From NCBI RefSeq assembly GCF_042242105.1, contig NC_092022.1, positions 11,156,001 through 11,220,000 of the forward strand: a stretch of DNA of 64,000 bases. The letters run 5' to 3'. Shown piece by piece: positions 569 through 37,215 of the stretch. Source of the DNA: Pempheris klunzingeri (taxonomy: Eukaryota > Chordata > Actinopteri > Acropomatiformes > Pempheridae). The notes under the pieces were generated by a model. That model was not told the DNA's origin and made no database searches. It saw only the letters and a program-made list of their open reading frames with translations. A program made the translations under genes and the position numbers. Position 1 is the first letter of the stretch. The number at the start of each line of letters is the position of its first letter.

Positions 569-3500
569 ATGAGTTCAGACCAGAGCGGAGAGCCGCCGCT
601 GCTGCAGGAGGAGGCCGATCCCGGACCGAAGAACGGTGGGAAGGACGAGGCTCTGCTGGGGAGCGAGGGAGGGTCAGGCGGCATGGTGAGTGAGGCCTTC
701 AGAGAGCTAGCCTAGCCTAGCCTAGCTTAGCCTAGCCGGCTCACTGGAGACCTGTTAGCATTGTACGCCCCCCTTTGGGCGAAGATTAACAGCTAAAATT
801 AACCCAAACAACACAGACACACATAAAGATGATGAGTTTCAGCCTGGCTTCCACTTTGTGACTATTCACGTAATCACTGTTTGGCTGTGTTCAATCGCAA
901 GGTGATGTTGATCATCAAGCGAAAACGGGCTCAGACGCTGCACATATGGCAGCATTTGCACGACTAACGTTACTAACTTGCGACCAGTGCAAACAGGTAA
1001 TTTAACACACTCCTCGTTAGCTTGATCTCCGCTGCAGCCCCTTCAGTGAGCAAGCTAACGCTAGCTTAGCCTCTGTAACATCAAGCTCATTAAGTAGTTT
1101 GCTGAGTAATCATTAGCCCATAAGTTAAGTTATGACCCAGCTGAAGAGTGGCGGCAGTGCTCTTTGGCGCGGACAGGTGCCGATTGAATTGTTTTCAGTT
1201 TGTAGTTTGTTGATTGCTTCGATTGTTGAAGGATAAACGTTCATTCACTAACGTTATCTGTTAGCTAATCGCGCTGCTAGCTAACTGAGCTAGCGCAGTG
1301 ACATGCGTTGCAAATACCTGGCCTGTGCTGCGCAGCGCAGTCAGCTGACATTACTTGGCTTGCTACGGCCTGCAGCACAGGAGCATGCATTGTAACCATG
1401 TGTCAAGTTGCAATTACATGTTCATGCTGTTTTGAATGACACCGAGGCCTAACATTAACCGCTTGGCACACCCATCCCTGTCTAGGAGGTGCAGAGAAGT
1501 GTCTTGAGGCATATTGTAACAGGCAGCTGTACTTGTCAGGCCGAGTGCTTCTGCAAAAAGGGGGTGGCTCTATTAGCAGGTGGCAAGTGACAATGTCAGA
1601 AGAAGAAGCTGGTAAATTTGACAGTTACTGGCGTTTCTATGTCCGTGCACAGCTGTCATCCACTCCTCTTTTTGGATAAAAGCACAATCTACAGTTTGTT
1701 CATGTGAAGTATCTGTGTGCCTTTTAATATTTACAGTATGCGGTCTATTCCTGGCTGCAGATCTTTGTAGGGTCAGGATTTCTCCTGCCAGTCGACAGCC
1801 CTTTTGGGAGTCAGATCCAGTCTGTGAATATTGTGCTTTAAAAATGGCAGTGGAAGTTACACTAAGAGCTCTTAACAGCATGTTAGTTTGTTGTTTTATC
1901 AGCATTTATTACAACAGACAGATGGCTACTCAGAGCTTTTCTCATTCTTCTCCTCCTTGAGGTTAACAGGGTAATAGACAGACCTTTGTCGACAGGGGAA
2001 CACAGGGCCCTATGTGGCACATTTCATTGTACTTCTCTGGTTTCCAATTAGATGCCATGGCGGCTCCGTGGTATGCAGGTGTTCCTGCTGTCCTAAGATT
2101 GCACCAGGTGATTTCAGTTAGTGCCCCCCAATATAAGGTTAAAGTACTTAGAGTAATCTGCAGCTGTAGTGATGGCTGGCTGTGCCGTGCATGCTCTCAG
2201 CTTTCTCAAGGTGCTCTCATTGTTTGAGACCACGGTGCAATTCCTTGTTAAATCTACAAGGTTTTTGTTGCTGCCAGGACTTTGTATGCACGTTGATGCC
2301 TCTTGTGAAAGCGGCTGTGCCTTGATGTAATGATCACCCAAACAAAAGGTAAAATTTAATTAATGTGCCTGCAAAACTAGATGGTTACACATTTCCCAGT
2401 CAGGCTTGTTGAATGGGAATTTGCCTTGTGTTTTCTCGGGTAGCTTTTTTTTTTTTTTGGATTGCTATAGTCACATCAACCATCATCAGATTTCCACCTT
2501 GATAATCAGAGATATTTTAAGAGCCACTGGATCTTACACTTAATGGCTGTGTGGTTTATTTAATGCATTCAAGATGCTTTGTTCACTGCTCGATATTAGA
2601 TAAAAAGTAAGCCATTGTTTTTGTGTTGATAGACGGGTGGCTGGTAAAACATACTATGGGCTGAAGGGTTTTTTAAAGTGGCATAGAAAAGAATAAGCTG
2701 TGATGAGATGGCAAATCTGAGATGAATCAGCAAAAACATGAAATGCATAATACCGAGAGTGTAGTGTCAATTGCAGATGAAACGTGTCGATCATATTCAG
2801 ATCTGTTCAAATGTAAATGGACTGTTTGTCTGACTTGACAGCTTTACATGCAAACTATTGTCCAGTGTTTTTTTGTGTTTGTGTAAAATGCTTGATTTAG
2901 CTAGAAATAAAACAAATGTCTTTCTATTCTGAATGTTGATGTTAATTGAACTCACCCGATCCTGCTGTTTCTCTTTTGAAGGTCACCTCTAAGGGCGCCG
3001 GTTTGAACCCAAATGCCAAGGTGTGGCAGGAGATGCCTGTGGCCTCCAGCGAGGCGGTTACCAACAGCCCTCATTGGCCCCCCTCAGACATCAGTGAGGG
3101 TGAGATACGCTTCCATCCGCCTAATTCAGTATCAGTCAGAATACGCAGAACTGATTTTATTACAACTTACAGAACTTGAAAGTGTGAAAAACAGTATTTT
3201 TTTTTGCAGAACTGGTCATTGACATTCATTTAAAATAAATATTACCTAATATTACCATTTTTGCTAGTCAGCACTAGCTATATCACTTATATTTATGCTT
3301 AACCTAAATTTTGCCTGTTACTGTTTAAGCTTTTTTTTTTATCCTGTCTTTGACAACATCAGTACATCTAAACTTTATTAATGCACACATTAATGGTTAC
3401 TGTGCCAAACACTCTGAGACGTACGGACATTTAAAATGGATGAGGTGGAGCAGCCTTTTAAGGCTCTCTGCTGTTGGTTCTGAATGAAACTCTTTACCTT

Positions 3501-6500
3501 GTCCGCAGGTTATTCTGAGCCTTCGTCTGCTGGGTGCAAGCAGTACACTGTGGGATTCACGGCCCTGGATGACAGCGGCTCGACAGCAACAGCTGAGATA
3601 GCAGTAAATGGAATGGACCCTCCAGAGTTGGGATTTTCCCCCGCTGAGTCGACCACGGGGACTTCAGGTCAGTCACGTCACATCACATGCACTCGTCGCC
3701 ACACAGCAACTGTGACTGCAAATAAGGATTGATTCGTTTTTATAATTTAAGCGAGACACTTTGGACGGGGGTAAATTGGCTCTTGTCCTTTCCATTCACG
3801 CACACGAGGGGGCAGAATATTGAGACGCCAATTAAAATGAGTCTTACGTTTTTTTGTTTAACACCAACAGAAGCTATGACCACAATTATTAGGGCTGCCC
3901 TCTAAAAGTTGATGATCTGACTCAACTGTTGAGAAGACCCTCGGATTTTGTCATTCAAGTCATTGCACTCGTTGCACTCAGGAAGGAGGAACAGCGTTAC
4001 AAAAAAACCTCACCTCTAAATGGGTACTTGAAATTGGGAGCAGCGTTGGCTGTAACAGAGCCCAAATCACTGAGTCTTTCCGAAAGGTGCTCAATATAAA
4101 AGCATGTTCTAACTTTTCTTTCTGCTGACATTTTGATTTCGGTTCTCAGCGGATTCCAAAACTGAAGAGCAGCCGATCTCCTCTGAGAATCTACGAGAGT
4201 CTCTGAAGAAGGAGCTGGAGTTTTATTTCTCTAGGTAAGAGCAAAGAGCGCTCAAAACACCCTTTTTATACTGCAGAATTTGGCGAGGGGACTCGCTGTT
4301 TCCCTGGTTCAAGTGAATGCTGATTTACATGGATTTATCATTTGTGATTCAGAGAAAACCTCTCGAAGGATTTATACCTGATGTCCCAGATGGACAGCGA
4401 TCAGTTTGTCCCTATTTGGACCATAGCCAGCATGGAGGGCATCAAGGCCCTCACCACTGACATGGACCTCATCCTGGATGTGTTGAGATGTAAGCGTGAA
4501 GTTCAAGATGGTGTGTTAAAACAATGTGCATCCATCTGTATTGTGTCTAGATTTAAACCCCTTGAATTTCCCTCAGCCTCTCCTATGGTACAAGTGGATG
4601 AGAAGGGGGAGAAAGTGCGTCCTAATCACAAGCGGTGCATTATCATCCTGAGGGAGGTCCCTGAAACCACACCTGTTGAGGTAAAGCTAATTTGTGAATA
4701 CACTTCGCGCTAAATACTTAATGTCTTTGGAAGCGCCAATTTTAAGTGTGAGACGTTTCTTTGTGTGTGATTCGCAGGAAGTTGAGTCTCTGTTCAAAAA
4801 TGACAACTGTCCAAAGGTGATAAGTGTTGAGTTTGCGCACAACAACAACTGGTACATCACATTCCAATCAGACACAGACGCTCAGCAGGTAATGAAAGTC
4901 AAACTTTACTTTTCTTTGCTCTGTCAGGACTTATTCAATTGAAAAATGCTGCGTCAACATGAATCTGATTCTCTGTTACGCTCCCATAGGCATACAAGTA
5001 CTTGAGAGAGGAAGTGAAAACATTTCAGGGAAAACCCATCATGGTGAGTTGACGTGAAACCCGTTTATGATTTTAAAAAGGAGAGTTTCTGAAGTTGTTT
5101 TTTAGTAATTTTACTCTTTGCTCTTGATGTTGTTTTTCCCCTCCAGGCCAGGATAAAGGCCATCAACACATTCTTTGCAAAGAATGGCTACCGTAGCATG
5201 GACAGCAGCCTGTACGCCCAGCAGTCCCAGAGCCAGTCCCAGTACAGCTCTCCACTCTACATGCAGCACGTCTACCCCCAGCAGCAGTACCCGGTCTACG
5301 GCATCGTACCTCCCACCTGGACGCCTTCACCCACGCCGTACTTTGAAACCCCTTTGGTGAGACAGTCATACAATGCTACTCTGGAACTCATCCCTGACGC
5401 ACCTCGGTTGAAAACACTCTGACAGTTGGTTTTTGTTTCCATGTGTCATCGGCCTTTAATGCGTAAAATGTGATGGAAATAAGTAACCTTGAAAGCCACA
5501 AGTTGTGGGCCAAAGAACCTACACAATCTGGGGAGAAATGTATCTGGTGAATTCAAACTAATCTTTCCGTTCTGACAAAAGCACACAGATTCCTGCGTAA
5601 TGAGTTATTCCAAATATGTGGGCTGTATTTTCCTACACAGTTCCACACTTGGAGTACAAACCGCACAGCAAATAATACAGTAAATTTATTTCCATGTCCT
5701 TGTTGTAGCTACTGAATTAATAACTTAAATTGTTGAATGGAATTTGTAAATAATGTCTGTTTATCCTTGCGCAGGCACCATTTCCCAACAGTAGCTTTGT
5801 GAACGGATTTGGCTCCGCCGGACACTACAAAACTGGCTCCAACTCTCTTAATATCACTCGCCCATTCAACAGAAACCGGTAAGGACTTCTTTTTCCAGAT
5901 GCCGTTTGAGTTTCATTCTTTGTTTTTTTTTAGTTTTGACTTAGATCTAAGTTGGGTATTTGCATACACATATTCTAACTGGAATGGTTTACCACTTGTC
6001 AGTGTTTGCATGATGTTGAACCGTGAACATCAGCTCATCTGTAATTCAATTTCTAAAGATCTAATGTAATCTAAAGATAATGTTACCTGACCAGGGAAAT
6101 GTGCTTTATCCCCTGTCTTCTTACTGTCCCCACAGTGTCCCCCTCTATTCAAGAAAGAATGTAATAAATGCCTTCAGGTACCACTATTATGCTGTACAAT
6201 AAGCTTCATCGCTACCCTCATCGCTTACCATACTGCAGCAGCCAAATGACTAAATCCATAACAGGGCTCGTGCCTTCTGCCAGTCAGACTTTTATAGCCA
6301 TAATCCTTTTCATCAGTGTGATAAACCTTTGTTGCCAGGTAATGGACATCCTGGATTTCTCATGTCTTTTGATAAATGTAGACTTGCTTACTACATGGCA
6401 GCAGCTGCCAAAGCAACTGGCTTTTTCCAATAATAGCCACCTTGGCTCCCAAATATCCTCTTTGCATTGACAGTATTACATGTAACAGTTTCTATCATCA

Positions 6501-9500
6501 CAACTAACCATCCATTTTATTTCTTCATTGCCCCCCCTCCTCCTTTGTTTTACCACTGCTTTCTTCGTCAGTGATTGTATTACCATATACCATGTGGTGT
6601 TGTATGCTATAACAAAGAGATGCTGACAGCTCAGATTTGGGTGTATGTCAGCTAGCTGTCAGGCTTTAATCTGTATGCTTTAAGTCTTTCTCAAAGAGAT
6701 GACAACTTTGCAAGTTTGTTTATGCATTGGCAAAGCAGCATGACAAAGGAATACGTCACTGGACTCTTCCCAAGTCAGACCTGGTGATGAAATCAAGATG
6801 CGCATAGAGGGAAACGAGGGAGTGGAGTAACTGGCTTTGGTTCTCTCTTTCTGCTCCTCTTCCATTCTCTCTCTCTCCCCCCCTCCCCCCATCCTTTCCT
6901 TCCAAAGTCGGGTACTTCACTCACATCCCAGTGAGCGTTCAGATTATGAGATCTGAGGGTCGAAGACTGATGGGAAGATGAATCCACGTGAATCACGCTG
7001 CTGTGATTTTTGACAAACACAGTCCATTTCAAAGCCTCGTTTGTGGCGCATTACTACATCAGTAGGCTGTCTAAGTCTTACATGGGTGTTGTCAGCTCTT
7101 CTCCACGAGTTTATGATTGGTTGCCGATTGCCAAACAATACAGTATGTTGACATCAAAGTCTCCACTGTTTGAACCAATCATGAGCACAAGTGTAGTCCA
7201 AACCCCCCTGCATGTCTACACATTTACCCTGAGGGCACAGCATGCCGTCCTCTTCCTGCAGCAAACTGGTGCCGCCAGTGTTTCCTTTTGAACATATTTA
7301 ACAGTTTCAGCCCGCATATCTGCGAAATGTTGATGGACCTCCGACAAATGGCAATAGCAGTTCATTCAGGTAGACTTAGTCCTATCTGTTCCAGTTTCCA
7401 TCCTCTAACCACTGATTACAGTGCAGTTTTCTGTGTGTCGTGGCATTAATGTTCAAAAACTAGCTCCACTTTTGGGACCATACATGTGGTTTAACATGTA
7501 AATGGAATTTTTGTAATTGTCAAGCTGATATTTTTCCATTAAGACAGAGAGCCACTCACATATTTAGGCATTATTGAACAGCATTGGTAAAGTTACAACA
7601 GTGTCATGATGTCCTTTTGTGTATTTTCACTCTATTGGTGCTTGCAAATGTATTGCCACCTGACGACGACGACGACAACAAGATAACTACAAGAAAAATA
7701 TAAAGATGGCGACATGTCAGCGTTTCTAGTTTCTACAGCATTTGCTATAGTAATAACTGAAAACAGGAAATAAATCTGATAGAAGTGGAAGCATTTGCTA
7801 TGTGTAAATAGACTTTCATGTTAAAAACCAAGCAGTAAGGTCAATGTAAAACCCCCTGAAGTTCCCCCATAAGGTCCCAGTGTCAAAATTATCCCCACAA
7901 GCAAAAAGGCCCTATTGGAAACACTGGTCACCAGTATGTCTTAAGAGTATCGTTAACATAATATTGACCTAGTTAATCTTCGCTTTTTCCCCTCTGCAAA
8001 CAGAAACCACGTGAAGCCCCAGGTGAGGACGAACGAGGTGACCGCAGCGTCTATAACTCCTGTCCCCCTGGAAAGCCTGACTGGACTGCGCAGCCCGCAG
8101 CCGCCCGCTCCCACTCCTGCTGCCACCACCTCTAATGCAGTCCAGTCGGCCTCTGACCTGAGCTCAGCATTCTCGCATCTCTCCTCCTCTTCCTCGTCTT
8201 TGGACCCCAGTGATGACGGTGGCATGTCTGGACGTGGAAGGTCAGCCTGCTCTACCTCTACCTCTGGTTTGTGCCCGGCTGTAATGGCTGCTGCTGCTGT
8301 GGCTCAATATGTCGAGTGACCGCTGACAGAGGATTTATTTGCGTTTCAGGCGGAGCACGACCTACAGAGGAACACGGAGGAGGCGAGAAGAAGAAAGGAT
8401 TGCGGTAAATGGCAATTTCCATGTCGTCTTTTAACCTGAACATTGCATTCAAAGCATGAAACACCATGTGATCTTTCTGTTTGTTTGCTCCTTTTCAATT
8501 TCCTTTCTCAGAGGCCTGTACCGCTAGCAGAGGTCAAGGTGTCTCCACCCAAGTTTGACTTGGCTGCTACTAATTTTCCGCCTCTTCCTGGCTGCATAGT
8601 CAGTACACAGGGAGAGCCAGTGCTAGAAAACCGAATGTCAGATGTTGTACGTGGTTTGTACAGGGACAAGGTAAGAAGAAAATTAGACTAACCGTTTGAA
8701 ATTCTCTTGGAAAAACTGCACTATTGTTGAGAGGGAGGCGTTAGAGATGTAATGTGCATTCCTCTTTGCATTTCATAGACAGAACAAGCCAATAAGGAAG
8801 CCACTGTGAGTCCAGGTTTAGGCCAAGTCCCGGTCTCAGAGGAGGCTGTAGCAGCCTCGAGTCCTGCCCTGGCAACAGTGAAATCTGCTACACAACCACT
8901 TGGACCCTCAGCCCCAGGGTACAACTAATCACTATTGAATGCACTATATTTAGTACTTAAACTCTAACGCCTGTATTAAGCTCACAATGGTAACATGAAT
9001 GTCTGAAATTCTTGCTCTGACAGTGTCCCTCGTCAGGAGAAGAGGGCTGAACGGGCAGAGGCTCCAGCTCCTAAAGTGACTCCGCGCGCACCCGTTCAAA
9101 CTACAGCGAACGCACCCTCCTCCACACAGCCCGTGCCTAGCTCCAGGCCTCAGCCCCCTGCTGCGTCCACGCCAGCGACACCCAGCACGACGGCCCCTGC
9201 TACAGCCACTATTCCCACCCCTGGACAGGTGAGAATCTGGGTCTGCGTGGCGACGGCCGACACCTGAGCACAGTTGTCTTCCTGATGATGACATCTTTTG
9301 CGCATAGAGGGGAAGTGTGAGGTAGTGGACTGACTGGCTTTGGTTCTCTCCTTCCTCTCTGCCTCACTCTCCTTCTATATTTCTCTCTTTTCTCTCTCTC
9401 TCTCTCTCTGCCCTATCCCACCAAAAGTCCAGAATGTTCACTACTACCCCAATGAGCGTTAAGATTATGAGATCTGAGGGTTTGACGAAGGGAATCATGA

Positions 9501-9962
9501 ATATTAATGCATAAATCGTAGTCTGCGTAAGATCTTTTATACCTGTGCTCTCTCCCTGCTTTGGTTCAGGAGCCCCGCAAGCTCAGCTACGCCGAGGTGT
9601 GCCAGCGGCCACCCAAGGACCCTCCCCCTGCGGCCCCAGCCCCAGCTTCCTCGGGCACCGCGTCAGGCCAGCCATTGCGTGAGCTGCGCGTGAACAAGGC
9701 TGAGGAGCCCGGCTCCAGCAGCGGTCCTGGAGACAAGCAAGAGAAAAGCCACGACAGGGAGGGGGGATGGGAATGCAAGGAGAGCCGGCCGCCACGTGAA
9801 CGTGACTCTCAAGGCTATTATCGCAGCAATGGCCCCAGAGGCACCGGGGGCCTCAAGTTTCGGGACCAGAGGCGCCCGCCTCCGGCCCAACGCAGCTCCC
9901 CGCAGGGTGGCTACAGGCACACTGGCAAAGAGCAGAATATCCCACCAGTATCGCCAAAGTAA
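569..9962 (+). CDS. larp4: La-related protein 4 (LARP4), 16 coding exons
   Basis: Cytoplasmic RNA-binding protein that binds poly(A) and PABP and stabilises mRNAs (family knowledge). Exons: 569-685, 2982-3099, 3509-3667, 4150-4234, 4353-4489, 4577-4680, 4778-4888, 4990-5043, 5147-5356, 5775-5878, 8004-8240, 8350-8404, 8512-8670, 8779-8918, 9024-9228, 9570-9962. All junctions are GT-AG and in phase, giving 795 aa. A variant PAM2 motif, [11 protein letters not shown] (about residues 47-57), has Trp in place of the usual Phe, which is the LARP4-family PAM2w signature. The La motif (about 140-222) includes [22 protein letters not shown], written here only to mark it; the RRM follows (about 225-305). 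A Q/P-rich middle contains [20 protein letters not shown]. The C-terminal part has an RG/RR-rich stretch, [23 protein letters not shown] (about 669-677) and a PPVSPK end. The sequence around the RRM fits LARP4 better than LARP4B. The start codon has a weak context (C at -3, A at +4). Introns are short except 1 and 10. The first exon is less conserved, so the start is the least certain part. Confidence 0.95.
686..2981 (+). other. larp4: larp4 intron 1
   Basis: A 2.3 kb intron between GTGAGT at 686 and AG at 2980-2981. Its first 600 bases still look promoter-like: a TAGCC/TAGCT pentamer run at about 705-740 and many GCTAAC/GCTAGC words at 1020-1070 and 1260-1295. The rest is ordinary AT-richer intron with a poly-T run near 2445. 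Small open frames on both strands (for example 1573-1905 minus) show no family resemblance. Confidence 0.7.
705..740 (+). repeat. TAGCC/TAGCT pentamer run
   Basis: Just inside intron 1 of larp4 the sequence consists of about six imperfect tandem copies of TAGCC or TAGCT, ending in TAGCCGGCTC. It lies inside the promoter-proximal region with many other TAGC-containing words. Confidence 0.75.
5879..8003 (+). other. larp4: larp4 intron 10
   Basis: A 2.1 kb intron between the phase-2 donor at 5879 and the acceptor at 8002-8003. It contains the first copy of the box C/D-like element (6773-6968). Otherwise I see ordinary intron sequence and no convincing extra exon. Confidence 0.75.
6773..6968 (+). 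ncRNA. Candidate box C/D-like structured RNA, copy 1 (intronic)
   Basis: An element of about 196 nt in larp4 intron 10, related to 9276-9486. Seen directly: box C word GTGATGA at 6784-6790; box D word CTGA at 6953-6956; a closing stem pairing AGTC/GACC (6773-6776, 6778-6781) with GGTC/GACT (6958-6961, 6965-6968); and an internal stem GAGTGGA (6820-6826) with TTCACTC (6916-6922). The apical part is a long pyrimidine tract. The 30 nt between the internal stem and box D match copy 2 at 25 positions, ending in GATTATGAGAT. I found no clear C'/D' pair. It is long for a snoRNA, so the alternative is an old duplicated intronic repeat. Confidence 0.45.
9276..9486 (+). ncRNA. Candidate box C/D-like structured RNA, copy 2 (intronic)
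   Basis: An element of about 211 nt filling most of the 341-nt larp4 intron 15 (9229-9569). Box C word ATGATGA at 9285-9291; box D word CTGA at 9474-9477. The closing stem pairs GTC (9276-9278) and CCT with GGG and GAC (9484-9486). The internal stem TAGTGGA (9323-9329) pairs with TTCACTA (9437-9443). Relative to copy 1 the outer pair of this stem changes from G-C to U-A, a compensatory change. Shared blocks include GCGCATAGAGG, ACTGGCTTTGGTTCTCTC and GATTATGAGATCTGAGGG. The 3' end lies about 83 nt before the 3' splice site, near the distance usual for vertebrate intronic C/D snoRNAs. Confidence 0.45.
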
Positions 9963-14668: not shown

Positions 14669-16445
14669 GCTCTACTATGTGGTACATCATGCAAAGCATT
14701 CAAAGTAAATATTCCTTGTCTGAGCGGCTCATCCGCACCATCGCAGCCATCCGCTCATTCCCGCATGACAATGTGGAGGATCTCATTCGTAAGGTAGGCA
14801 CATCTTACAGTCCGACGTAAAATAAGTAATATCTCCTAGTGTCATCAGTTGTGTTGACATCATTGTCTCCTGTATGCCCAAGGGAGCTGATGTGAACCGG
14901 ATGCATGGCACACTTAAGCCCCTGCACTGTGCCTGTATGGTTGCTGATGCTGACTGCGTGGAGCTGCTGTTGGAGAAGGGCGCAGAGGTATGTCAGAGAT
15001 GACTCCTACACACTGAACAATTTCTCACCACAAGATTTTAGATTAATTTACTACCCACCAGGCAGCTACTGTATGATATGAAAGTCAACCTGTTAAACCA
15101 GGTTTGTAATAGGTAATCCATCACACTGAACATCATGGTTGATTTTATTTTTGCCAAAGATATGCCATCTTTGTGGGGCAGTTATTAAACCTTTCCAGTA
15201 CTGGTGTTTTCAATAAAGCTTTGACATCTGAAATTAAATATTTGGTTCCCAAAAAACATTGATGTACAAATCAAACATGTAAGATACACAGTAAAGAAAT
15301 ATTGAACTGCAATTAGGAAATTATGAAAATTTGAAGGTTGCTGTTTGACACCCAACTCTCCAGCACTTAAACACACAAACAAAGAATGTTTTGAGTGTCA
15401 TACTGTGCTGGCATGAACTGGAACCAGTGGCCCTGTTACTTTAAAATAATCACAGAGCATTTTTAGCACATTTTTCTGGACTATTCATTTGGTAAAAAGT
15501 ATTTCCATTGAAAATGGAAAATTTGGATGAACAAATTGTACACTTGTCTTTTTTTGGGTGGCACTAGCAGCACTACAGCAATTTGTTATTTTTATGTTTG
15601 TCCTTGAAATTTGCATTGCCTGTGTGGTATTTTAGCACACAATTACCACACCCTCTGATCTATATTCCGATTCAACTTTTTGCACTTGCACTGCAAAACA
15701 GCAGGTGCACAGTCCATATGTCCTTTGTGCCCGCACCATTGAAATATGACCTTAGGTGTTGTTAGCTCGTTAACATGAGATAGTTAATTACATTCCATTT
15801 CCTCATCAGGTTAATGCTTTGGATGGATATAACCGCACGGCACTGCACTATGCAGCAGAGAAGGACGAGAGCTGTGTGGAGCTGCTGTTGGAGTACGGGG
15901 CCCATCCAAATGCACTTGATGGCAATAAGGACACCCCACTTCACTGGGCTGCCTTCAAAGATAACCCAGAGTGTGTGAGGGCCCTGCTGGAGAGCGGGGC
16001 CTGCCCCAATGCCCGGGACTACAACAATGACACACCTTTGAGCTGGGCAGCAATGAAAGGCAACCTAGAGAGTGTCAAAGTGCTATTAGACTACGGATCC
16101 CAGGTCCATGTGACCAACCTGAAGGGCCAGACCCCTATCTCCCGACTGGTGGCCCTGTTGGCCCGGGGTCTGGGCACTGAACAGGAAGAGGAGTGCCTAG
16201 AGCTGCTGTGTCGGGCAGCAGGGCGTTTTGAGATCCGGCGTGCTGACGGCACCCTTCCCAGGGAGCTGAGTAAGGATCCCCAGCTGCTGGCGAGGCTGAC
16301 CAACATGGTGGCTCAGGCTCCCACGCTTCGCTCTCTGGCTCGCTGTGCTGTCCGGCAGAGTCTTGGAGTGCAGTTCCTCCCCACTGCAGTAAAAGAGCTT
16401 CCTTTACCAGAGACTATCAAAGACTATCTACTGCTGAGAGACTGA
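14665..16445 (+). CDS. asb8: Ankyrin repeat and SOCS box protein 8 (ASB8)
   Basis: Substrate-recognition subunit of an Elongin B/C-Cullin-5 E3 ubiquitin ligase (family knowledge). Coding exons 14665-14793, 14883-14987 and 15810-16445 give 289 aa, against 288 in human as I recall it. The N-terminus MSSTMWYIMQSIQSKYSLSE matches mammalian ASB8 almost exactly and fixes the start. Ankyrin repeats lie at about residues 53-81 (LKPLHCACMVADADC), 86-114 (RTALHYAAEKDESC), 119-147 (DTPLHWAAFKDNPEC) and 152-180 (DTPLSWAAMKGNLES). After a linker, the SOCS box occupies about 250-289: SLARCAVRQSLG is the BC box and KELPLP the Cul5 box, ending in DYLLLRD. The product should be intracellular, as there is no signal peptide or membrane segment. 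Divergence from human is concentrated in the linker at about 195-250. Confidence 0.96.
14988..15809 (+). other. asb8: asb8 second coding intron
   Basis: An AT-rich intron of 822 nt between GTATGT at 14988 and CATCAG ending at 15809. Nothing else is recognisable. Confidence 0.8.
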
Positions 16446-27700: not shown

Positions 27701-30700
27701 CACCAGGACAAGTAGACAATAATAATAAGAGTATAATGCACTTATCTCTCGTTTTTTTCCTCTTGTTCATTTGTTCCAGAGGTTTACCAATGAGGACCAC
27801 TTGGCTGTACACAAACACAAGCATGAAATGACACTGAAATTTGGACCAGCCAGGACAGACTCTGTCATTATCGCAGGTATCGTTTGTGTACCAAACAAAT
27901 GAACAGCTTTACTCCTCCTCTCCCAGCATTCAGATGAGGGCTGCTTAGCATACCACAGCGTCAGTGTGTTCCAACACTATGAATACTCCAGTCTCCAATA
28001 AAACTGCTCTAAATACACTTTTATGACACATATGTCTATATTCAATGCTAAGTGTGAACTAAGTGTTAAAGCTTTACTTTGAATAATTTATCTGTTTATT
28101 CCCTTTTGCCAGACCAGACACCTACTCCCACCCGCTTCCTAAAGAACTGTGAGGAGGTTGGTCTGTTCAACGAGCTGGCCAGCTCCTTCGAACAAGATGA
28201 TGATGACAAGAGAGCAAAGAACTCTGTAAGAAAAGCTCGGGTTTGATGGCTTTGTCTGTGTTTTCATCTGTGTCTGTCTTTACACTTTACTGTGTACAGT
28301 AAAGCGATGGAATTTTTTGCAAAGACTCCCATGTAGTGAAAAATGACTCCTTACTTCCCTCTTTCTTACCTCAAGTGTTGATATAGTCAAAAATGATTGT
28401 TTGCAGAAATTCCTTCCTTGTGCACTTTGTGCGTGCATCATTATGATTAAAACTATTGCGACGGCTTGTGTGTTTTGTAAACTGATGCTGTGGTTGTTTG
28501 GTTTATGTGATAAACACCATGAATACCAGCTCCCCTTTTTAATGTACCGTAGCCTATGAGAATCTTTGATAAGTCGTGTGAGCTTACACTTTTCATCTCT
28601 CTGTCACTGCCTCTGCCCTTCTCAGCTCCCTGCACCCAACTCTGTGGCTTTGGACATGAGCCTTCAGATGCCATCAGATGTGAAGGTGAAAGAAGAGGAA
28701 CCTGTAGAGGTCGACTCCTCGCCACCAAATAGCCCCGAATCTGTCTCTGGAGAGTCAGACAGCAGCAAAGAGACTTGGGTTAAAGGAAAGGTAGGACAGA
28801 AATGCAAGGAGAGGGAATTGGATGATTGAGATGAAGGGTGAACCTTAAATGATGTAGAAGAAATATGACTCGTGATTTTCACGAGGAAGTGGATCATATT
28901 ACCTTTTTTCTTTGAGAGGTGATGCCTGGCTACTATTTTGAATAACTGATAGCTTTGTTTTAACTGTTTTTACATAACTTACCTCAATACTGTCCTCCTA
29001 GGACACACCACCCAGGAGTTCGGCCCCCACCCCGACTATTGTGCGTCCAGGTTCCCTCCCACTACACTTGGGCTTCGATGCCCTTCAGCCCACCATGCCA
29101 TCACCCACCTCTGTCATCACACAGGCACCACCTTCCAATCGTACTCTGGGGTGAGCAAAGTCAACATCCTTCTGCTGACCTCTTTTACTCTGATTGACCT
29201 CTTAAAATGTACCTTAAGTAGTTAAAAAAAAAAACACATTTTCCAGTATGACAATATCACATGTATAGCCTTTATCTTCTGGTTCCAACTCAACGTTGAA
29301 CCCATGTGATGCTTATGAGTCAACTTTTTTGTGGCTGCACAAAGTGAAATATGTACGTTGTTTTGTACATCCTTTAAAAACATATGTTTTATCTAAATCT
29401 TGTGTTTCTAACCAAAATTTCATAGAGTGCAGTTTTTTAATGCACAGCTTGGACTAGTAATGATAAATGTAAATGTGGATTTTTTTGGGTTAAAGTGGAT
29501 ATTTTTTCCTAAATGGTTTTGTTGGAGTATAAAATTGTCATATATAGAAACATGACCGAACATCCTGTTCTTATTGTCCCTCTGCTGTCTTTCTTGTTTA
29601 GTTCGCCAACCAGCCACTACCCCATGATGATGCTTCCCTCTGGTCAGGCAGTGCCTGTGCTCCCTGGTCCAGTACAGATGCCCTCTGTCATTAATGTAAG
29701 ACAGGCCAACCGTCTAGATATGTTGTATTTCAATTTTATAGCTAAGAAGTTGGTTCAATATGGTTGTTGACATGTGTGTATTTGTGTATCTTATCTGGTC
29801 TCCAGCTGGCCCGACCCATGTGCATGGTACCCAACATTCCCGGGATCCCCGGTCCTCCTCTGGGAGGCAGCAGCAGCGGCTCTAACTCCCCCTCTGGCTA
29901 CAGCATCCACTCGGAGGCCAAGATGGTCAGCGCTAGATTAGTTCTCTATTTTTATCTGTTTATCTGTTCTTTTTGTCTCCATCTTCACCCTCCAGCCTTT
30001 CTCTGCGTTTGTTCATCATATGACTTTTTACTGCAGTTATTTTTTTTTTCATTTAACCCTTACACCACAACCACACAGCTGACTGTGCAATACTGAAAAG
30101 TACACATAGAGCCCAATGTAAGGAGCCCACATTTCAACTGTATGTCTAATGATACTGTTGGTGTGCAGAATGTTCTATTTATTTATTTTCCCCAATTAAA
30201 CAAAACACTGTCAATAGTTCAAACAAAAACAACAGCAATGACAAAAAATATATGTATGTACAGGTATGTTGTACAACAAAGCAAAAATATATCTGTAAAA
30301 TATCCACCTAAACCACCTAAAGAGGATTAATCGTTAGCTAACAATGAAGCAAATGTACAGCGTTCAACTGATATGTAATAAGTTTATTCCTTAACAGTTC
30401 ATTTTCAGTTTAAACTGTAGCAAGCAGTGACGTATGCAGATAGATAATGAGTGAATGCGATCAATAGCGAGATCCCAGGTTGTATCGGGGATGGTCCCAT
30501 TAAGGTCTTGTTCCCAGGCAACTTTTGTTGTGGTCAGTGTTGGAGCAGTGATGTGTTGGATAATATCATATGGTGTGCCAAATGTTTTGTGGCCACCATC
30601 ACACACATGGGTATGAGTTCAATATGAGTTCAATTTTTAATATAGTTAACAGTTTTCTCAATAAGAAAGAGTAAATTTAGATTTTAGATACTTTTGGATC

Positions 30701-33700
30701 ATTCTGCTACATTACTGACAGGTGTAGAGTCACACAATTTTGTGAAATGTGGCTCCTTATATTATGGTATTTTTAACAGACAGTAGAGTACATACCATGG
30801 ACACTTATTCCATTGTGGAATTTTTGACAGCACAATATTTTCCATGAATTCACACTCAAATAAAATGCTAGACACTAAATATAGTGCATTATGTAATGAG
30901 TAGGGAGCAATTTTGGACAGCCATGACTCTCTTACTACCAAATAATGATTGTTGAAATGGCTGTGACCCTAAATGTGCTGTTGACCCGTTCTGTGCTGTC
31001 ACTGTTACAATCAGTCATTTAAGAATCATTACTCCCAGCTGGATAATACAACAAAGAAACACCATCTGAAAATCCAGTCCAGGAACATAGAAATTTAGTC
31101 AGCTCACATCAGCCACAAAGCCTCCAGAGCTGAACGCAGTTGAAAAGGTTTGAGATAGAACGAGATGTCACATGAATGTGCTGCGGAGAGCAAGCTGGAA
31201 CTGTGTGACACTGTTAGGTCAGCACGGGTGAAGAATTAGAGCACCTTTTGAAATGAAAGCCTTACAGAATTTTTTTTTTTTTTTTTTATGAGACAAAGGG
31301 CAGAACAACTTGTTGCTTATTTTATTATGTTATGACAACAGCAGATATCTGGCAAAAAAACAGATTTATTGAATGTAAAATATGCAAACTTTCTGTCTGC
31401 TGCAAAATACCACAACACAAACATTTGTGACCAAAAACTAACTTACTTCAGACTGTATTGAACAGTAGTAACTAAAAGTTGTTGTTGCTGATCATGTAAA
31501 TGAGTCCATTTGTGTAGCTGCATGGGATAGGGCTTGCTATGATGTTGCAATGATTAACATTAGAAACCTATAGTGCTACTGAATCTGATCAGCTGTGCCT
31601 TTCTTTTTTTCGCTTAGAGCTTTCCTCCAATGATAAAGCCTTTTCGTTTAAACTAATATTACGTTGTTTGTATTGTTGGTTTGGGCTGTTTATTTCATCA
31701 TTGTTCTGTCATTGTTCTCCTGTAGCGTCTGAAGGCTGCGCTGTCCCAGCAGAGCCCGTCAGGACACAGTATGGGGATCATGGCTATGGGCAGCAGCCCC
31801 ATGGTACCTCAGAGGGCAGAGCAGAGCCAGCTGCTTGTCCAACAGCCAGATGCTCCATCACCTGCACAACCTCAGGTACACTGTGTTGTCTGTAAGGACT
31901 GGACTGTGACAAAGTAACAAAAGTAACTGAGCTAAACCATGTTAAATGTGTGCAGGGCTCCAGACTGCGACCAAAATGGCATATGTGACCATTTTTTGTT
32001 AGCGTGCGAGTTAAAATTTCGTGTGGGTGCATGATGATCTGCCAGCACTGGGTGCCCTACACACAGCGCTTGATGCATATGTACGTAGCGCTGCACAGCA
32101 CCGAAAAAAATCCATTTAACTGTTACCATGTTCCAAAAATGAAGTGGTCTACAGCTGATTATTTTAAAAAGCAAAATGAGGAGAGAGGGACGGGAGGCTG
32201 GTGGAGTGGTTAGGGATGATGAGATGTTCGACAGAGATGGCACTTATGATCAAAGTACAGACCGACTGAGCCAGTGAAGAAGAAAAAAGACAACTTTCAA
32301 CCACAGTGGCTAACGCACAGTGTAGGAAGAAGTACACAGATCTTTTACTTAAGTAAAAGTTGTAGAATAAGTAAAAGTACAAAAGTATTAGCATCAAAAT
32401 ATACTTGAAGTACCAAAAGTAAAAGTACTCATTATGCAGCATGCTAGTTCATTTCAGAATAATGTATATTATATTGTTGGATTACAATTAATTATGCATT
32501 CATGTGTTCACACTTTGATGGGTATGTTGTGAATTCCCCCCTGGGAACCAATAAACATTATATTGATCTGAGCCTTTTAACTCAAGCTGTTAGATAAATG
32601 TAGTGAAGATGTAGATGTAGTTAAGTATAAACAGCCAAAAACAGAAATACTCAAGTAAAGTACATTTACCAGAAATTTGTTCTAAAGTCCAGTATTGTAG
32701 TAAATGTACTGCTAACACAGTAGCTCTGATTGCTGTTTTCTTTTAAGATTATATAATAGAAGATGACGTATCTGATAAACTTTACATTCAGATTGAAATA
32801 TTTAGAAAATCTCAAATCTCTGTCAGTCTTTACCTCAGTGCAAAACCAGGGTATCTAGATTAAGTCAAGTGTTCATCAGCATGTAAGGTGATTGATTAAT
32901 ACCCCGCTTTACCAAAAGAAGGGTGCGACCATTTCAGTTGCAGAGAAATGGGCCTGCACTTCTGGTATTGAGTCGACTATAATACACTCTGACTAAAATA
33001 ATGAAACTATGACTCAAACTTCCTTTTTCTCTCTCTGTCTGTCTTCCGGTCCCCTCCTGTCTGTCTGTTTCCTTCGCACCCTCTCCCCTGTTCTCCCTCC
33101 AGGTATCTCCAGCACAGCCTACAGGTGGGCGTCGGCGGCGGACGGTAGACGACGATCCAGATGAGCGAAGGCAGCGCTTCCTCGAGAGGAATCGGGCTGC
33201 GGCATCGCGCTGCAGACAGAAACGCAAACTGTGGGTCAATTCCCTAGAGAAGAAGGCTGAGGAGCTCTGCAACCTGAACGTCTCGCTGTCGGTGAGTGGG
33301 GATGGAGTGGGTGGCCGGGGCATAGGAATGTGGCCTGTGGGAGGCCTGTGTTAGTGTGTGCACAGTCACACTCACTGTGCCCAGCTGGCAGGCTTTCAAC
33401 TAGTCGTGGAAGTTTGTGAGGTGTTTTCCAGTCAGTTTCAGGTAATTTTACAAAAGAGTGAGGCTACAGGACTTGTAACCATAGAGCTCATTACAACTTG
33501 TTTCACAACTTTATTTTGTTATTGATGGTTTCAGGTTATTTTTACACCCCATCTTGACTTCTTCACTTTATCTGTACTGCAGTGGAAACCAGGCTGTTTA
33601 CCCCTTTAAAGCATTTCTTAGCTGAAAAACATTAAAAATCCATTGGGGAAAACGTTTGGATGATCTTCCTGTTTGATGATTTCTCTTCTGGGTATACTGT

Positions 33701-34354
33701 ATGGCTAACAATGATATGAATTCTCTATGAATTATTAAAAAGTGTTGCACGTTCTTTTTTTCTGATCTTTCAGAACGAAGTGTCTATGTTGAGGAACGAG
33801 GTGGCTCATTTGAAACAGCTTCTGCTGGCCCACAAAGACTGTCCTGTGACCACCCTACAGAAGAAGACTGCCTACTTAGGTGAACCTTTTTTTTTAATCA
33901 TGCCATGTTACCCACCTGTTAGCTGCTTATGTTTATTTTCTCATTCATGACAGAATCCTCATGTGGGGATACTTAGAATACTTTTAAACAAGTTCTAAAC
34001 CACAAAGATAATGTCCGTGGCTTTTTCAGTCAGGCTGGTATAATGTATTTGAGTTTAAAAGTGAAATGCTTTTACCAGTTTAGGTATAAGCCTGTGTTTG
34101 TGTCGTTTTTTTTCTGTGCAGCTGCAGAAGAGAGCATGAAAGACACCTCAGAGCCCACAGGGTCCCCTGCCCCGGTGATCCAGCACAGCTCTTTGGCGCC
34201 GAGCCCCTCCGCAGGGCAAAACGGCCTGAGCTCAAGGGCAGCAGCTGAGGCCATGGCTATGTCTGTGCTGGCAGGAATGGGCCAGCAGCAGAGGGCTGAG
34301 AGCGGACCCTCTCACATTATCATGGCTGCACAGTCTCAATCTGCTGCCAGATGA
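24777..34354 (+). CDS. atf7: Cyclic AMP-dependent transcription factor ATF-7
   Basis: Nuclear bZIP factor of the ATF2/ATF7 family that binds CRE/AP-1-type sites as homo- or heterodimers with Jun/Fos (family knowledge). Exons: 24777-24824, 27780-27876, 28113-28225, 28626-28790, 29002-29150, 29602-29695, 29806-29925, 31726-31875, 33103-33291, 33774-33879, 34122-34354; all GT-AG and in phase, 487 aa. Residues 1-35 carry MGDDRPFVCNAPGCGQRF and a C2H2 finger. The transactivation segment has the TPTPTRF kinase target (about 51-57) and CEEVGLFNELASSFE. IKEEEPVEV-like KVKEEEPVEVDSSPP follows, then a proline-rich centre. The bZIP is encoded mainly by 33103-33291 and 33774-33879: basic region RNRAAASRCRQKRK (about 336-350), then a leucine zipper to LLLAHKDCPVT. 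The VIQHSS and C-terminal SQSAAR segments match ATF7 rather than ATF2. Which teleost duplicate (a or b) this is cannot be told here. Confidence 0.95.
26708..26733 (+). repeat. AAC trinucleotide microsatellite
   Basis: About eight tandem AAC units in an atf7 intron, read directly. Confidence 0.9.
26909..26998 (+). promoter_or_regulatory. MEF2-like site and CArG box in atf7 intron
   Basis: CTAAAAATAAG at 26909-26919 fits the MEF2 consensus. CCAAAATAGG at 26989-26998 is a perfect CC(A/T)6GG serum-response element. They lie 70 bases apart in a GC-richer patch of the intron. Function is inferred from motifs only. Confidence 0.35.
29926..31725 (+). other. atf7: atf7 intron with retroelement relic
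   Basis: A 1.8 kb intron with a GTCAGC donor and CTGTAG acceptor. It contains the minus-strand LINE-like fragment at 30391-30606 and a poly-T run at about 31270-31290. Nothing else is recognised. Confidence 0.7.
30391..30606 (-). pseudogene. Fragment of a non-LTR retrotransposon ORF (L1/Tx1-like)
   Basis: The minus-strand frame encodes a peptide with WEQDLN, IPDTTWDLAIDRIHS and CIRHCLLQFK. This pattern resembles the region downstream of the reverse transcriptase in L1/Tx1-type LINEs (a WE-DL block, then a S-C-RH-L-QFK block). It is only 71 codons long and has no flanking intact frame, so it is a dead fragment. The assignment comes from remembered family pattern. Confidence 0.45.
31876..33102 (+). 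other. atf7: atf7 intron rich in transposon sequence
   Basis: A 1.2 kb intron containing the repeat at 32318-32715. At about 31955-32240 there may also be a diverged element beginning GGGCTCCAGACTGCGACC and including a KWSTADYFKKQ-like peptide, which suggests a hAT-type DNA transposon remnant (weak). Pyrimidine-rich sequence precedes the acceptor. Confidence 0.6.
32318..32715. repeat. Abundant percomorph repeat (AAGTAAAAGTAC type), non-autonomous
   Basis: The text contains AGATCTTTTACTTAAGTAAA, AAAGTATTAGCATCAAAATA, ACCAAAAGTAAAAGTACTCA, TTATGCAG and, at the other end, ACTCAAGTAAAGTACATTTA. These are hallmarks of a very common non-coding repeat of spiny-rayed fishes. In the middle, near 32530-32570, GAATTCCCCCCTGGGAACCAA and AATAAACATTATATT resemble a LINE 3' tail, which suggests a nested insertion or mosaic. 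Confidence 0.7.
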
Positions 34355-37215
34355 TGAGCGATGCCACCAAGGCCTGAAATTGGCTCACACTCGTCACCCA
34401 TGGGTAGAAAAGAGCAGCGAGGACCCCCCCTCCCCCCAGATGTCTCACCTTCCCCTTTCCCCTTAGCTGTGCTCCTCTGCTCTCTCTGACCCTCCTGTAG
34501 AGCCATCATGCTGTGGCCTGGAGCTCAGCGGCAGCCTTCTGGGAATGGACTGAGACTTTTGAGAGAGCTTCCTGTTCACTTTGCCATAGACTACAGGGGC
34601 TGGACTCCAACCTCCCATCCTCGTTTCCCCTCTGTGCTTCCCCCGCTCATCTCTCCTCACCCTCAGTCAAAACGACTCTTCACTGGACTGTAGGACTGCA
34701 TCGCTCTGAGTGTACCGCCGTAACGAACTCCCCACGTGGACACGCACCACACGTGCACAGTTTCGAACACACGGGTGTTGCATAAACATTCTCGATCAAA
34801 TCAGAAACCAAACAACACGCGGGGCTTTACACTGTTTTCAGCAGGGAATAGTGCCTTCTGCTCCTCGACGTCTTAGCCATGCACACACCCACACATGTCA
34901 TCACAGCATACGTCCCTATACATCCACATCCCTGGCTCCAAAGATGCAGAAACTGTCTAGACGTCAGTGACTCAGATCTCAGATAGTCACCCAAACCTGT
35001 TGTAAATGGTTCCACCTCGAGATGATCTTAACAAGGACCCAAAAACCTTACCTCATGTACACCCCTTTATGATAAAATTGATAAACTGTGTGTGTGATCG
35101 GCTCCGTGCGTATATTATTAATGTACATCAGAACATAGCAGTTTGCCTACTCCTGATCTGATAACGTTAATAGCTGGATTGTTAGCATGTGACTTTTTCT
35201 ATTAGGGTGTTATGTTCTTGATACATTATGTGCAGCTATATTTGTTTTAATTAATTGGCACATCCTCCCAGATTAGCCCACAGAACCTAAATACTTTGGA
35301 TCGACAGTTTGTTCTCACAAAATTAGTTGAACAGTAGCCTTTTCTGACCCGAAGGGAATTCAATGTCTCCCCTCCTCCTCACTTTCCTCTAAAACAGGCA
35401 GTTTTTGCTGTTTATTGGTTTGTAAGTGGATGCCTTTTCCATTTTATATAAACTATTCTTGTGACTGTGTTTCTCTGTGTGGGCTCTGGACTTACTGTAA
35501 CTGTTATTTTCACACTTCTCAGGATGGTTGCACATCCTTGCTGCTCGTTGGAAGTGCGATTGAACCCCTTAGTCTCTTTGCTCTTTACCAAACCTGAACT
35601 AAGCCATAATGACAACAAATCACATCTCTGAATCTCCAAAGACCCCCCGGTACTTGTACTGGGGCAGGAAGTAAAAAGACTGACTGTTATTTTGTGATTC
35701 AGAGGCCACAGTGACACAATCTACAGTATATCACTGCTCGTTACTTGCACTTGCTTGTTACACACAGTCTCGCTCGCAATGTCTGATAATCTTGCCTTAA
35801 GATCACATTTGTGCCTCTGACGTCCCCCCGCATAAAGATACGCAGATTTGCTCATGTGAAAAAACAATGGAGCCTTTGAAAAACATATTTGTCTTAATTT
35901 GTTACTGTCATCAAACGAAAAAAAACAGACGAGGAAAAGATTTACTTGCTGAAGGTTCCTCAAAGCCTTTAAAATAAATGGTTAATTTAACCCTGAGTCT
36001 CTTTTCAGTGACATAAAACACTTGTCTGTCATCTGGTGGAGAGACGAAGCAAAGACATCTTCACCGTTAAAAGCTTCAAGGGAGGAAAAAAGATAAGACG
36101 TCTTGTGACCGTATCTGAATGGCTCCAGTTCTTTAGAAATCCCACAAAGATATTAGAATATTTTTTACATAAACACCTAAACAAGCGGTTTACTTTCCCT
36201 CCTCTTCCTGTACATTTTCCCCCTCTTTCATCCGATATGATCATATATTTGCAAGATGTGATATTTCAAAAACGAGATATCTGTCCATTAACACAAGGGC
36301 GTGTCTTTATGCACTAAAATAATGCAAGTTTATTGTTGCTTTGTATTTCTGTTCATTTTTTGCAGTTCTCTTGTTCTCTGGGTCTTTTTCAGAGATTTCA
36401 GATCCTTTTTTTAAAAATGATATTTTCTCTTATCTGTACTGTATACATGAATGGGAGTTTTCTCAGAAACTTTAATACTTTTTAACCTCTGCCTGAACCT
36501 CTTGTCCTACAGTCCCAAAGGCGACCCCGGCATTTTGTTGTACTTTGGAGCTGGCGCTATATTTGGCTGGCAGTCCCTTATAGACGATTATTCATATGAA
36601 ATGAAAATTCAAACTGTATTTAGCTTTCATGTTTTCATGTAATTCATGTCATCGGCACCTTTGCTTGTCACTTCTCTTCTTTTGCTGTGTGCTATTTTCA
36701 GCACTAAACAGCCTTTGTCGTAACACTTCAGACTGTACTGATGAATATAGAAAGTACTTTCTTTAACACACAGGTTTCTTTTTTGTTTGTTTGTTTTTTC
36801 TCAACAGAAAAATGTCATTAGTCTTTTTTGTTTCAAAAGCTAGATTATATCCCTTTAGTCATATCTTTGAAGATGAATTTGAACATGTTTGACTTTTGAC
36901 TGCCCTTGTCTAACTTATTTTTTTAATTGGTCAACTAACAATCGTCATTACGGTCTTTGGCATATTAATGTTACCTAGAATTGTTGTGAAAAGAGCAATT
37001 TAATGAAAAATGCAACAATGTGAAAGTTGCACATAGTGTATTAGTGGTTTTTCACACTCCCATTGTATGACTGATGATTTCAAAAATTGTCCTTGTACTG
37101 TACATATCTGTACTATATGAATATATTTACTTTTCCATGCATGTCCAAGTGGAATACTATGAACACTTACAGTGCTGCAGTTTTAATTAAAGAAACTACA
37201 TCTTAATGAACATTT
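34355..37215 (+). other. atf7: atf7 3' UTR
   Basis: Long non-coding tail after the atf7 stop. It is moderately GC-rich up to 35000, then AT-rich with several T-rich stretches. Candidate poly(A) signals are AATAAA at 35973-35978 and ATTAAA at 37186-37191. The latter is followed within 30 nt by GT/T-rich sequence, so I place the likely end near 37.2 kb. No coding sequence is seen. Confidence 0.6.

Follow-up and report, generated by a model that had tools for sequence, protein, structure and literature searches.

Two predicted SCARNA97 guide RNA genes in introns 10 and 15 of larp4 of the fish Pempheris klunzingeri

The DNA analyzed here, referred to below as the window, is a 64-kb stretch of the Pempheris klunzingeri genome. 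It contains a larp4 reading frame of 16 exons on the + strand (569..9962), whose exon boundaries were set by eye:

569-685, 2982-3099, 3509-3667, 4150-4234, 4353-4489, 4577-4680, 4778-4888, 4990-5043, + strand: larp4 coding exons 1-8
5147-5356, 5775-5878, 8004-8240, 8350-8404, 8512-8670, 8779-8918, 9024-9228, 9570-9962, + strand: larp4 coding exons 9-16

The spliced frame was open to the stop codon (795 amino acids), and AG and GT were present at 15 of the 15 introns. Residues 1-411 contained a La domain (Pfam), and their top PDB match was La-related protein 4 (6i9b, E = 1.7e-98). Exons are numbered from the one that contains the start codon, and an untranslated first exon would shift the numbering of the introns. 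Intron 10 (5879-8003) contains the first of the two elements described below, copy 1, and intron 15 (9229-9569, 341 nt) contains the second, copy 2. Upstream of copy 1 in intron 10, a 42-nt segment at 6136-6177 (+ strand) has AG on its 5' side and GT on its 3' side, as judged by eye, and is possibly a small alternative exon.

The neighborhood of larp4 was also inspected. Downstream of the gene, an exon at 15774-16442 (+ strand) encodes ankyrin repeats and a SOCS box and looks like an ASB-family gene, for which we take ASB8 to be the candidate name. Exons at 28560-34470 (+ strand) resemble an ATF-type bZIP factor, presumably ATF1/ATF7; the Pfam bZIP match lies at 33013-33351, and no Pfam match was found at 28560-28826. 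Exons resembling DIP2 were found at 61615-63350 (+ strand), with a DMAP1-binding domain at 61615-61860 and no Pfam match at 61952-62305. As human DIP2B presumably adjoins LARP4, the DIP2-like exons near larp4 would favor orthology with LARP4 over LARP4B.

The two intronic elements have the following box C/D features:

6784..6956, + strand: copy 1, box C to box D, 173 nt, in larp4 intron 10
6784-6790, + strand: box C of copy 1 (GTGATGA)
6841..6903, + strand: pyrimidine tract of copy 1, 63 nt, 95% C+T
6953-6956, + strand: box D of copy 1 (CTGA)
9285..9477, + strand: copy 2, box C to box D, 193 nt, in larp4 intron 15
9285-9291, + strand: box C of copy 2 (ATGATGA)
9344..9419, + strand: pyrimidine tract of copy 2, 76 nt, 92% C+T
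9474-9477, + strand: box D of copy 2 (CTGA)

Three words are common to the copies: GCGCATAGAGG at 6800 and 9300, GGCTTTGGTTCTCTC at 6833 and 9336, and GATTATGAGATCTGA at 6942 and 9463, which fixes the positions of box D. The boxes and common words were located where an earlier reading of the same DNA, made from the sequence alone, had placed them. The two copies align from box C to beyond box D with a local score of 141, while 300 dinucleotide shuffles gave a mean of 21.8, a standard deviation of 3.0 and a maximum of 39. The similarity of the copies is thus well above the chance level.

We then analyzed the sequence upstream of box D. When compared with the sequence of vertebrate elongator tRNA-Met, AGATTATGAGAT, which precedes box D in both copies, was complementary to the anticodon arm, as follows:

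6938..6952, + strand: antisense element of copy 1, 15 contiguous pairs (one G-U) with positions 30-44 of tRNA-Met(CAU)
9462..9473, + strand: antisense element of copy 2, 12 contiguous pairs (one G-U) with positions 30-41 of tRNA-Met(CAU)

In both copies the fifth nucleotide upstream of box D opposes C34 of tRNA-Met, the first anticodon base of methionine tRNA. The guide rule for box C/D RNAs, as stated in one study (PMC6601510), takes as the target the base that faces the fifth nucleotide from box D. The antisense word GATTATGAGAT has two exact occurrences in 64 kb; when one mismatch was allowed, a single extra match appeared at 32215, which is within chance for the 64-kb window.

The region that separates box C from the antisense element is predicted to form a long hairpin in each copy, built from these segments:

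6800..6812, + strand: hairpin base of copy 1 (GCGC, TA, GGGA), pairing with 6926-6938
6820..6840, + strand: internal helix of copy 1, 5' strand, pairing with 6902-6922
6902..6922, + strand: internal helix of copy 1, 3' strand
9300..9312, + strand: hairpin base of copy 2 (GCGC, TA, GGGG), pairing with 9447-9459
9323..9343, + strand: internal helix of copy 2, 5' strand, pairing with 9421-9443
9421..9443, + strand: internal helix of copy 2, 3' strand

The internal helix of copy 1 consists of 10 pairs, one mismatch and another 10 pairs (-30.2 kcal/mol), and none of 1000 base shuffles of its strands was as good. That of copy 2 is similar, although two bulges and an internal loop interrupt it (-24.1 kcal/mol), and 0.2% of 1000 such shuffles were as good. 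Box D begins 31 nt past the internal stem in both copies (the stem ends at 6922 and 9443), in agreement with the earlier measurement. When the two sequences were folded together, with the pyrimidine tract swapped for a spacer and one of three gap settings used, the consensus added basal pairs (GCGC/GCGT, two more, and GGGA/TCCC, which is GGGG/CCCC in copy 2) and came to 33 pairs, 7 in the terminal stem or boxes and 26 in the hairpin.

In the alignment used, 22 of the 26 hairpin pairs were unchanged between the copies, 1 was changed on one side, 3 were changed on both sides (A-U to G-C, G-C to U-A and G-C to C-G), and none was broken. The sequence-only reading had reported a single compensatory pair in the internal stem. 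That pair is present, together with two further ones, in this one alignment; with the two other gap settings the outermost base of the stem, where it lies, falls against a gap. The count comes from two sequences, which are too few for a proper covariation statistic or a covariance model. Copy 2 alone favors a different fold by 1.8 kcal/mol, in which the pyrimidine tract is base-paired to a purine stretch, and the ensemble probability of the conserved internal helix was about 0.005 in copy 2 and about 0.4 in copy 1. The hairpin, if formed, would display the pyrimidine tract as a loop.

The sequences outside the boxes were also investigated. In copy 1 they form a predicted closing helix:

6765..6782, + strand: closing helix of copy 1, 5' strand, 17 pairs with 6957-6978
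6957..6978, + strand: closing helix of copy 1, 3' strand

None of 1000 base shuffles was as good as this helix of 17 pairs (-28.5 kcal/mol). The closing stem of copy 2 reached -10.9 kcal/mol, and 64% of 1000 shuffles were as good, which is the chance level. A few closing pairs adjacent to the boxes are common to the two copies. The earlier proposal that both copies are closed by helices is borne out for copy 1, where the helix is strong, but not for copy 2. The two copies also differ in their positions: 1047 nt separate copy 1 from exon 11 and its 3' splice site, and box D of copy 2 lies 92 nt upstream of exon 16. For a box C/D RNA, copy 1 is thus poorly and copy 2 favorably placed relative to the 3' splice site. 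Hirose, Shu and Steitz reportedly found in 2003 that a closing stem can substitute for intron position. Since copy 1 is far from the splice site with a closing helix and copy 2 is near it without one above chance level, the contrast is suggestive, in this one gene, of splicing-independent and splicing-dependent modes of C/D RNA assembly. Judged from these positions, copy 1 would mature mainly via its closing helix, and copy 2 mainly via its distance to that site.

A human RNA with this organization has been described. Human SCARNA97 (SNORD133) is a 216-nt RNA encoded in the sense orientation in LARP4 intron 10, the intron that separates exons 10 and 11. Its centre is pyrimidine-rich over 93 nt, and an RNA without this region shifts from Cajal bodies to the nucleolus (PMC6601510). 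SCARNA97 and its sister RNA SNORD97 guide 2'-O-methylation of C34 in elongator tRNA-Met(CAT), and their homologues were present in every vertebrate genome examined there (PMC6601510). Both human RNAs were also recovered in hybrids with tRNA-Met-CAT in a later survey (PMC12645875).

The fish elements share with human SCARNA97 the host gene, the sense orientation, the antisense word with box D and the pyrimidine-rich centre. Both lie in larp4 introns in the sense orientation, copy 1 alone in an intron whose number (10) is that of the human one. Box C conforms to RUGAUGA and box D to CUGA in both copies, and in both the antisense element at box D, complementary to tRNA-Met(CAU), places its fifth nucleotide at C34. 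From box C through box D the copies span 173 and 193 nt, similar to the length of the human RNA, whereas the fish tracts are shorter (63 and 76 nt versus 93) and the fish has a second copy, in intron 15. The human sequence was compared through the published 26-nt SCARNA97 probe only (PMC6601510), which was reverse-complemented and matched by eye: AAGATTATGAGATCTGA, contained in its reverse complement, matched copy 2 at 17 of 17 letters and copy 1 at 16 of 17, while the other nine letters of the probe, its 5' part, were partly different from both copies.

Rfam was searched with the entire 64-kb window, and no match was found at the gathering thresholds. At a lax threshold, copy 1 scored 23.5 bits in an end-to-end alignment with SNORD97 (RF01291), whose gathering score is 45; the E value was 0.82 in a search of 4.5 kb and 0.04 when 219 bases were searched alone. 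The alignment spans both boxes and the antisense element, and no other snoRNA family exceeded 20 bits with copy 1. Copy 2 had no match to SNORD97 up to E = 10. Matches to the microRNA precursors MIR528 (22.2 bits versus a gathering score of 62) and MIR2118 (21.6 versus 85) were rejected and taken as purine/pyrimidine pairing, and other families matched at the lax threshold were rejected as far under their thresholds. The SNORD97 score of copy 1 is comparable to these microRNA-family matches and by itself is no evidence; it served as a lead.

SNORD97 is the known sister RNA of SCARNA97 (PMC6601510), and in human it is a nucleolar RNA from intron 13 of EIF4G2; a chicken SNORD97 is listed in another study (PMC3349704). 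The fish copies share with it the antisense element, the GGG after box D and the word TGAGCG, and copy 1 also shares the words AAGAnGCG and AGAGG. In contrast, the fish copies lie in larp4 and not in EIF4G2, neither reaches the 45-bit gathering threshold, and their box D is CTGA where the 142-nt SNORD97 model has the consensus ATGA.

Taken together, these results indicate that both elements are very probably fish SCARNA97 genes, that is, genes for box C/D guide RNAs encoded within larp4 introns. The assignment is based on sequence, gene position, boxes, complementarity, the predicted helix and covariation between the two copies. Its support comes from the host gene and, for copy 1, the intron number shared with human; from the fifth-nucleotide rule, which gives C34 in both copies; from the pyrimidine tracts (63 nt at 95%, 76 nt at 92%); from the covarying internal hairpin of 26 pairs with 0 broken; from the probe-derived AAGATTATGAGATCTGA kept in both copies; from SNORD97 being the sole snoRNA family to exceed 20 bits with copy 1; and from the position of the copy 2 box D 92 nt from exon 16. 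The sequence-only reading had seen in larp4 two intronic copies of a long box C/D RNA whose stem covaries, and as a predicted RNA this interpretation was correct. It had added that no named snoRNA of this length and layout was known in LARP4 and that the RNA might be new. SCARNA97/SNORD133 is that RNA, and its family is already known (PMC6601510).

It could be proposed that only copy 1 is a working SCARNA97 and that copy 2 is a decaying or unexpressed duplicate. The chance-level closing helix of copy 2, its contiguous antisense pairing shorter by three pairs, the conserved helix that hardly forms in its ensemble and the lack of a SNORD97 match would fit such decay. However, copy 2 retains boxes C and D and 12 core antisense positions, its internal helix is kept with compensatory changes, and its box D lies 92 nt from the 3' splice site, and we consider the decay of copy 2 unlikely. 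A further proposal would be that copy 2 derives not from SCARNA97 but from a nucleolar SNORD97 that moved into larp4. Its lack of a SNORD97 match up to E = 10, its long pyrimidine tract, its box D CTGA in place of the SNORD97 consensus ATGA and its good alignment with copy 1 along the entire length argue against this origin, although TGAGCG before the antisense element is common to both copies and the SNORD97 consensus, and the human SCARNA97 probe stretch reads otherwise at that site. Such a transfer appears very improbable. That the elements are an intronic interspersed repeat which resembles a C/D RNA by chance is scarcely credible, as the antisense word occurs exactly twice and nowhere else in the 64-kb window, the tRNA complementarity is in the correct register, and the host gene and intron number are as in human.

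As SCARNA97 genes, both copies would encode RNAs whose box C and box D bind C/D proteins and in which the 12-15 nt upstream of box D anneal to the anticodon arm of elongator tRNA-Met(CAU), setting up C34 for methylation by fibrillarin; the long internal hairpin would carry the pyrimidine tract as its loop. By analogy with the human RNA, the fish copies would be expressed, would direct the methylation and would reside in Cajal bodies. Marnef et al. are said to have described in 2014 box C/D scaRNAs in which G.U/U.G wobble stems act as the Cajal body signal. SCARNA97 is likewise of the box C/D type and carries a Cajal body signal, but its signal is the pyrimidine-rich region (PMC6601510). The covarying hairpin provides a concrete structure for probing Cajal body targeting.

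A two-arm grip on the tRNA was also considered. Here the first arm would be the D-box element, bound to tRNA positions 30-44. The second would be the word that follows box C, which reads GACGCG in the SNORD97 consensus and GATGCGC in copy 1; it would bind positions 22-28, one base away from the first on the tRNA, and would compete with the basal pairs of the hairpin (GCGC/GCGT). The SNORD97 consensus word paired over 11 nt with tRNA positions 18-28, and shuffles as good numbered 0 of 3000 for tRNA positions 1-29 and 7 of 3000 for the whole tRNA. In this register copy 1 had 7 pairs and copy 2 had 5; their best matches lay elsewhere in the tRNA, with 111 and 788 of 3000 shuffles as good, respectively, which weakens the second-arm reading. 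The combined proposal, that SCARNA97 and SNORD97 grip the tRNA by two arms and that the fish keeps two copies released from the intron differently, is unlikely.

Outside relatives were searched in two collections that contain no fish genomes. In viral_contigs, GATTATGAGATCTGAGGG had no match and AAGATTATGAGATCTGA had six, among which L003-L005 are nearly identical to each other; TAAGATTATGAGATCTGA had one match in genome_contigs, with a 17-nt pyrimidine run in the 260 nt upstream. An exact RTGATGA was present in the 260 nt upstream of 0 of these 7 matches, and all were taken as chance. In the titles and main-text passages searched, no listed title named a fish SCARNA97, and neither a second copy in intron 15 nor the covarying hairpin was met; the passages of PMC7671301 and PMC3349704 in this set gave no fish data. 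The supplement of PMC6601510 may already show two larp4 copies.

The RNA family, the host gene, the target and the pyrimidine signal are known already; what may be new is the second copy, together with some of the structural detail. The locus thus ceases to be a candidate for a new RNA class, and a known tRNA-modifying guide is extended to a fish with two copies in a single host gene, both of which the Rfam thresholds overlook. Since methylation by SCARNA97 and SNORD97 shields tRNA-Met from angiogenin cleavage in human cells (PMC6601510), the duplicated locus of this fish would serve as a model for guide dosage and for presentation of the pyrimidine tract. The local alignment of the two copies extends about 25 nt beyond box D (6957-6983 and 9478-9502, + strand), and the duplicated unit may therefore have included some 3' flank.
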